From Wenzhouxiangella sp. AB-CW3 (GTDB taxonomy: Bacteria > Pseudomonadota > Gammaproteobacteria > Xanthomonadales > Wenzhouxiangellaceae), in contig NZ_CP061368.1 in the NCBI RefSeq assembly GCF_014725735.1, positions 1,937,225 through 2,001,224 of the forward strand: a DNA stretch of 64,000 nt, read 5' to 3'. Below the pieces are notes generated by a model that was given only the letters and a program-made list of their open reading frames with translations, was not told the DNA's origin and searched no databases. Of this stretch, positions 59,613 to 61,747 are shown one piece after another (positions within the stretch are counted from its first letter, which is position 1; each line of letters opens with the position of its first letter). Both the position numbers and the translations under genes were made by a program.

Positions 59613-59613
59613 A

Positions 59614-59641
59614 ACCGTATCCTCCTTTTGAAGCAATCGGT
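59614..59641 (-). promoter_or_regulatory. ROSE-like RNA thermometer hairpin over the hsp20 ribosome-binding site
   Basis: Minus-strand RNA: arm ACCGAUUGCUUC, loop AAAA, arm GGAGGAUACGGU, ending 1 base before the AUG. Pairing runs A-U, C-G, C-G, G-C, A.A, U.U, U-A, G.G, C-G, U-A, U.G, C-G. The ribosome site AGGAGG is wholly inside the stem and faces UUGCU with an opposed G.G, the signature of ROSE elements (U[U/C]GCU against AGGA) of small heat-shock genes. The weak internal mismatches would allow melting on heating. This is read from sequence and not tested. Confidence 0.65.
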
Positions 59642-59719
59642 CGAATTTTCAGGATGTGCCCGCCTGCGTGGAGGCCGGGCGTTGATTCGAGGTCCCGTTT
59701 CCGGCGACCTCGGTGATAG

Positions 59720-59747
59720 AGGTAGGGACGTGCTGGGGAATTTCAAG
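59720..59747 (-). promoter_or_regulatory. Sigma32 (RpoH) type promoter of hsp20
   Basis: Minus strand: CCC followed by CTTGAAA (59747-59741), exact to the RpoH -35 consensus, a 13-base spacer, and CCCTACCT (59727-59720) as a partial match to CCCCATnT. Transcription would begin near 59713, giving a leader of about 100 bases that includes a CGAGGTC/GACCTCG hairpin and the ROSE-like element. Confidence 0.65.
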
Positions 59748-59768
59748 GGGCTGGGGTTGGTGATGGCC

Positions 59769-59910
59769 AGAGGGGTGGATGGGAAGAGGGAGAGAGGGAG
59801 AGAGGGGTAGAGGAAGAGAGGGTAAAAGCACCGAGCTCCTGGCCCGTCTTCCCTCTTCCCCTCTACTCTTCATCCCCCTCTACCCTCCTCCCCCTCTACC
59901 CGTCCCCATA
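59769..59910. repeat. Purine/pyrimidine inverted repeat with 16-17-base units, upstream of hsp20 and over the greB stop
   Basis: The plus strand is almost pure purine from 59769 to about 59823 (GGGAAGAGGG, GAGAGGGGTAGAGG) and mostly pyrimidine from 59847 to 59910 (CCCTCTTCCCCTCTA, CCCCTCTACCC). The inner arms TAGAGGAAGAGAGGG and its near-complement CCCTCTTCCCCTCTA face each other across a centre near GAGCTC (59833). On the pyrimidine side the unit CCCCTCTAC recurs at 16-17-base spacing. One unit contains the greB stop codon. It could form a cruciform or triplex, or end greB transcription. Confidence 0.75.
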
Positions 59911-60369
59911 CTCCACCGCGATCACCGTCAGCGCACGCTCCCCCGAAGGCGTACGCACCACGGCCTCGTCGTCGATCGCCTTGCCCAGCAGGGCCCGGGC
60001 TACGGGTGAATCCACCGAGATCCAGCCGGCATCGGCATCGGTTTCGTCGGCACCGACGATTCGATAAGTCACCTTGCTGTTGTCTTCCTCTTCCAGGGTG
60101 ACGGTGGCACCGAAGAAGACTTTGCCCGGGTTGTCGGTGCGTGCTGCCACCGGCTGGACTTCGTCGAGGCGTTTCTGCAGGTAGCGGATACGCCGATCGA
60201 TCTCGCGCAACTGCTTCTTGCGATAAATGTACTCGGCGTTCTCCGAGCGATCACCTTCGGCGGCGGCCGCGGCCAGTGCCACGGTCACCTCGCGGCGAAG
60301 CTTCCAGCGCTGCTTGAGTTCATCCTGCAGCCGGCGGTGACCGGCTGCCGTGATATACGGTGAACGCAA
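59896..60369 (-). CDS. greB: Transcription elongation factor GreB
   Basis: Stimulates RNA cleavage by backtracked RNA polymerase. From the TTG at 60369 the 157 residues (E. coli GreB has 158) begin [18 protein letters not shown]. They form a coiled coil with the tip acidic residues in [20 protein letters not shown] (D40, E43), then a C-terminal domain [14 protein letters not shown] and [10 protein letters not shown]. The TTG has AGGTGG 8 bases upstream and lies 1 base after the fumC stop; a GTG at 60381 would overlap fumC. The stop codon lies in the purine-rich repeat. Confidence 0.93.
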
Positions 60370-60370
60370 G

Positions 60371-61747
<1,377 letters not shown>

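Follow-up and report, generated by a model that had tools for sequence, protein, structure and literature searches.

A probable three-hairpin ROSE-like RNA thermometer in the leader of an ibpA-type hsp20 gene from a Wenzhouxiangella-type genome

ROSE-like RNA thermometers are characterized by their position in the 5′ UTR of bacterial small heat-shock genes, by two to four hairpins (PMC4166951), and by a U(U/C)GCU motif that pairs imperfectly with the Shine-Dalgarno (SD) sequence in the 3′-proximal hairpin (PMC3669281), the motif G being bulged or non-canonically paired. Such elements have also been reported for ABC transporter genes (PMC11342760). Published ROSE elements carrying the UYGCU motif act as thermometers in reporter and probing assays (PMC3669281, PMC11342760). 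The ibpA leaders of Pseudomonas fit two hairpins into 61-62 nt, according to PMC3669281. When G39 of Pseudomonas putida ibpA was deleted on its own, heat induction rose to 6.8 fold, but expression was shut off when the same deletion was combined with U38C (PMC3669281). In the oppF thermometer of Providencia stuartii, heat induction was lost in a double mutant that carried U43C and lacked G44 (PMC11342760). The structures described for these hairpins disagree. According to PMC11342760, the NMR structure from B. japonicum contains a G83.G94 pair and contacts of C80 and U81 to U96, whereas the oppF crystal structure pairs U43 with G61 and bulges G44, and is said there to differ from the NMR G.G pair. 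The authors of a further type, ROSE-G, draw the motif G opposite an SD G (PMC12857270).

Here, we describe a new example of this known type of switch, a probable ROSE-like thermometer preceding an ibpA-type hsp20 gene in a Wenzhouxiangella-type genome; the literature that we searched yielded no report of an RNA thermometer in Wenzhouxiangella. The locus lies on the minus strand of a 64-kb stretch of DNA, which we refer to as the window, from a genome assembled as a single contig of 3.84 Mb whose nearest named relatives, among the best 80 of 161, are Wenzhouxiangella metagenome-assembled genomes (MAGs) at 97% identity. The gene (59612-59142) encodes a small heat-shock protein of 156 aa (Pfam PF00011, 71.8 bits) for which the closest NCBIfam model is IbpA, with a score of 179.5 bits that falls below the equivalog cut-off of 212. 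Its upstream neighbor is greB (59896-60381). With its observed sequence, covariation, small heat-shock protein context and promoter-like site, the leader of this mRNA is very probably a three-hairpin ROSE-like thermometer in both class and mechanism.

The last of the three hairpins, hairpin III (59613-59642, minus strand), sequesters the SD, and its 3′ end adjoins the start codon. Its 28 bases at 59641-59614 are arranged as a first-pass annotation of this DNA had described them: arms of ACCG and CGGU enclose a stem with a four-base AAAA loop, in which the anti-SD motif UUGCU (59632-59636; U59636, U59635, G59634, C59633, U59632) lies opposite AGGA (59623-59620), part of the SD region formed by GGAGG (59625-59621) and A59620. 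None of 200 dinucleotide shuffles folded as well as the 36-nt hairpin stretch (z = −3.18) or as the 102-nt leader (z = −3.25). The near-zero distance to the start codon noted in that annotation holds for the end of the hairpin but not for the SD, which sits at a normal spacing of 8 nt from the ATG (59612-59610). Nor is the element the compact version it was taken for, as two more conserved hairpins lie upstream of 59641 and the whole leader spans about 100 nt. In this it differs from the two-hairpin Pseudomonas ibpA leaders and resembles Bradyrhizobium hspA ROSE1 (RF00435), a multi-hairpin leader with the SD and UYGCU in the 3′ hairpin. It also shares with the P. stuartii oppF thermometer the UUGCU motif, a U.G wobble beside a bulged G and a U.G just 3′ of the motif (PMC11342760), although oppF is an ABC transporter gene rather than a small heat-shock gene. 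Two other assignments were rejected: a fourU thermometer requires four consecutive U opposite the SD (PMC4166951), and the longest U run in the anti-SD strand here is 2; ROSE-G requires a CUGCU motif, according to PMC12857270, where this leader has UUGCU.

Conservation of the paired positions in related hsp20 leaders had been named beforehand as a test of the thermometer reading, and such conservation was found. We gathered hsp20 loci through the Hsp20 protein or family, without using the RNA sequence in the search. Matches were obtained in 45 of 61, 31 of 274, 189 of 398 and 106 of 200 genomes, and separately among the best 80 of 161 relatives; the leaders used comprise the loci returned plus 114 places (14 + 100) taken by hand from the listed matches, mostly one per genus from the 398-genome search and several per genus from the 200-genome search. 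From 294 loci, 289 with a tblastn match were reduced to 284 and then to 258 distinct leaders, five loci being dropped for a missing leader or start (L008, L010, L037, L039 and L129). The contigs of L037 and L039, from MAGs of close relatives (positions 1-3), break off with 2 nt left before the hsp20 start codon. Of the 258 distinct leaders, 249 have UYGCU no more than 48 nt from the ATG; equally long control windows taken further upstream contain it in 43 of 515 cases. A first, hand-listed set of 44 distinct leaders, from the same order and near kin, carries the motif throughout. The nine exceptions comprise five leaders with no clear motif (L090, L106, L153, L155 and L245) and four (L194, L257, L292 and L293) in which AUGCU faces AGAU in place of UYGCU and AGGA, turning the 59636-59620 pair from U-A to A-U. 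RNAfold bulges the motif G in the optimum of each of these four; since all come from one genus code (g14), the exchange may represent a single event.

Upstream of hairpin III, the leader holds hairpin I (59689-59711) and the GC-rich hairpin II (59658-59680), both on the minus strand. We aligned 22 leaders of the same family, hand-picked with more diverged ones left out, and removed one (L188) whose anchor lay further out. Across the resulting 21 leaders, 97.8% of cells were paired (hairpin I, 100%; II, 98.4%; III, 95.7%) and 11 of 28 pairs had changed on both sides, and none of 500 shuffles reached this covariation on any of five measures. Hairpins I and II account for most of the covariation. 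Changes on both sides were seen at 4 of the 8 pairs of hairpin I, all 8 remaining standard in all 21 sequences, and, in at least one sequence, at 6 of the 9 pairs of hairpin II, as against 1 of 11 in hairpin III. With the partners shifted by one to three columns, only 40-54% of cells were paired; the margin over these slides is partly built in because the structure was drawn by eye from these same rows, which favors it. The leader consists of three hairpins with compensatory changes and carries the SD in the last, within the range of two to four hairpins given for ROSE-like elements (PMC4166951).

A σ32-like site precedes the hairpins on the minus strand (59722-59747), with a −35 element CTTGAA at 59747-59742 and a −10-like element GTCCCTAC at 59729-59722. 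Its spacer of 12 lies just outside the consensus range of 13-18 given in PMC3669281, and it scores 10 out of 13; scores of at least 11 were seen in 55 of 84 Lysobacterales-type leaders, compared with 0.6 per set of letter-shuffled regions. Transcription would start near 59712-59720, and with this predicted 5′ end the leader is the 5′ UTR of a bacterial small heat-shock gene.

Hairpin III alone behaved differently in alignment columns. In the alignment of the 44 leaders of the first set, it showed no excess of both-side changes, with 423 and 176 of 500 shuffles reaching the observed value for two pairing registers, and a one-column slide covaried equally. We therefore tested its outer arms by swapping flanks. 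Using a bulge-tolerant score, we exchanged the 3′ flanks of 97 leaders (60 distinct flank pairs) without regard to kinship and found that outer arms matched their own partners better than in any of 5000 permutations (7.45 versus a mean of 4.94). The same was true of 29 flank pairs from the first set (9.62 versus 6.84, no permutation as good). Alignment columns understate the outer arm, as its register shifts by one base between lineages in both alignments. Together with the UYGCU counts, these swaps give good support to the ROSE-like class that the first-pass annotation had proposed for this gene.

We then considered how UUGCU pairs with the SD, since two registers fit this hairpin. In the register that we judge likely to be the selected one, from the pattern of natural variants, the pairs would be A59637-U59619, U59636-A59620, U59635.G59621, C59633-G59622, U59632-A59623, U59631.G59624 and C59630-G59625, with G59634 bulged and an outer arm of ACCG with CGGU in which A59618 bulges. 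Alternatively, the thermometer could work through a G.G register, the one drawn in the first-pass annotation. There, G59634 meets G59621 and U59635 pairs with A59620, while U59619 and A59618 lie opposite U59636 and A59637. In neither register does G59634 have a Watson-Crick partner, in keeping with the bulged or non-canonical motif G of ROSE-like elements. The G.G register, which by our own mapping of the numbering seems to equal the B. japonicum NMR structure with its G83.G94 pair and its contacts to U96 (PMC11342760), is the RNAfold optimum for the window sequence (−8.0 versus −6.9 kcal/mol at 37 °C) and is also drawn by the RNAalifold consensus. In its favor, the four AUGCU leaders retain the motif G, as do the 249 UYGCU leaders, where the search defined it, and the base opposite this G is a G in 203 of the 249. 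The accompanying U.U and A.A oppositions, which the first-pass annotation had placed in the stem, are common (173 and 134 of 249, both together in 131) but not general.

This register is nonetheless not the one best kept. Its 59635-59620 pair is standard in 191 of the 249 leaders, versus 248 for 59635-59621, and the 59637-59619 pair, which it does not use, is standard in 235; 59636-59620 is standard in all 249. The last two counts lean upward because the score by which the SD tetrad was chosen takes in 59636-59620 together with the outer arm, though it is blind to 59635-59621. At this latter position we counted U.G in 122 leaders, C-G in 81, U-A in 45, C.U in one and C.A in none. The one leader with C.U (L147) was retained although its tetrad appears to have been misassigned, and choosing the tetrad without regard to pairing gave U.G 122, C-G 81, U-A 46 and no other combination. 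As 59621 lies within the SD and is almost always a purine, the real test is whether C ever meets A. With 82 leaders having C at 59635 and 45 having A at 59621, roughly 15 C.A combinations would be expected under independence, and none was found. When one site was evolved independently on the hsp20 tree with the other held, C.A was absent in only 2 and 12 of 3000 simulated runs. Fisher tests, uncorrected for relatedness, gave P = 0.04 for Gammaproteobacteria alone and P = 5 × 10−8 for the remaining leaders, whereas independent-pairs sign tests for this position were not significant (median P = 0.125 and 0.25). Pair counts in the 44-leader alignment could not separate the registers (84.4% and 86.2% paired), which is why the broader set was needed. 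We regard the G.G register as an improbable basis for the switch. The register best kept here bulges the motif G, as in the oppF crystal structure and unlike the NMR structure as described in PMC11342760. We lean, with less assurance, towards the broader reading that natural variation settles which of the two conflicting ROSE structures is selected: the pyrimidine-purine pair with a bulged G would be the general ground state, the G.G pair seen by NMR would be an alternative or local state, and lineages may tune the switch by turning the wobble into U-A or C-G, or by the AUGCU/AGAU flip.

By analogy with studied ROSE elements, we infer temperature-dependent opening, translational control and a scaffold role for this leader. 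At low temperature, hairpin III would pair the SD with UUGCU and hide it from the 30S subunit; upon heating, the imperfect SD/anti-SD helix would open and translation begin, on top of σ32-type transcription, with hairpins I and II serving as stable scaffolds. The motif residues likely share the role seen for their counterparts in the P. putida ibpA and oppF mutants. Folding across temperature, which the first-pass annotation had proposed as a check, did not reproduce such a switch: RNAfold predicts no useful melting of this leader, with pairing of its three middle SD bases never below 82% up to 50 °C and the accessibility of the SD tetrad no higher at 42 °C (0.25) than at 25 °C (0.26). This lack of melting, along with a predicted stability of hairpin III that exceeds that of its counterparts in 97% of the 249 leaders, counts in favor of an ordinary conserved leader whose hairpins stabilize the mRNA or tune translation at all temperatures, SD occlusion serving no thermosensing purpose. 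Yet the opening that RNAfold gives the other leaders is modest as well, the median for unpaired SD going from 0.05 at 25 °C to 0.12 at 42 °C, and a UYGCU/SD core with an imperfect helix in nearly all related leaders, preceded in most by a heat-shock promoter-like site, also speaks against a leader of this kind, which we hold to be very unlikely. A coding role for the motif has still less in its favor. An in-frame TTG at 59636 opens an ORF of 164 aa (59636-59142) that would add eight residues to Hsp20, but UYGCU stands 17 to 32 nt from the ATG across the 249 leaders, which are spread over the three frames (80, 53 and 116), so that the conservation is not coding, and it is the paired bases that are conserved. 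We rejected this reading on these grounds and give it next to no weight against the thermometer.

We also asked how far existing and new covariance models recognize such leaders. The Infernal search with the Rfam ROSE model that the first-pass annotation had suggested scored only 16 bits on this leader (RF00435, E = 5.2), under the gathering cut-off of 45 bits, even though the weak match spans model positions 1-94 of 94, and at gathering thresholds the whole window had no Rfam match. Of 20 other proteobacterial hsp20 loci, the same model recovered a single one at its cut-off (L077, 62.1 bits), and it showed no match in 18 Lysobacterales loci with E limited to 1, a threshold at which a 16-bit match could not appear. 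Because it misses most related loci, the low score reflects the reach of the model and not the class as used in the literature. Searched against 30 sources, a covariance model of the three-hairpin leader had 22 matches at E up to 1. Besides the window, these comprise 19 of 27 hsp20 leaders outside its training set and two sites away from hsp20 leaders (L077 at 3983 and L092 at 4305). The 19 include L056 (4.5 × 10−13), L064 (8.8 × 10−13), L120 (1.8 × 10−11), L122 (2.4 × 10−8) and the alphaproteobacterial L109 (5.1 × 10−5), along with weaker ones. In the source genome, two covariance models, the three-hairpin one among them, listed the leader site only at E up to 5, among the 150 of 292 and 150 of 2572 candidates scored. 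Rfam matches set aside as far under their cut-offs include a Pseudomonas sRNA P36, snoRNAs, a miRNA and HgcE near the leader, the P36 match being essentially hairpin I, and two other places in the source genome that the ROSE model drew in a run lacking the leader site (L001, E = 4.9; L002, E = 6.6).

The locus and its relatives add ROSE-like leaders of Wenzhouxiangellaceae and their kin that lie beyond the cut-off of the Rfam model, many of which are within reach of the three-hairpin model. They show which base pairs evolution keeps, and so bear on the printed disagreement between NMR and crystal structures of ROSE hairpins, and their natural variants (C-G, U.G, U-A and AUGCU) allow switching temperatures to be compared.

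No UYGCU leader was seen at the other two hsp20 genes of the same genome. Between greB and hsp20, a purine/pyrimidine-rich tract (59750-59910) with GAGAGGG and TAGAGG units contains three imperfect inverted repeats and has partial matches at 8 further places in the genome, one of which (3226985-3227099) adjoins another hsp20 gene. A long GAGGAG-type repeat (L003, 1234-1383) precedes the hsp20 gene at 3227432-3227127 and extends into its predicted start. The genome also encodes a 258-aa protein with two Hsp20 domains in one chain (L005, 1384-2160).
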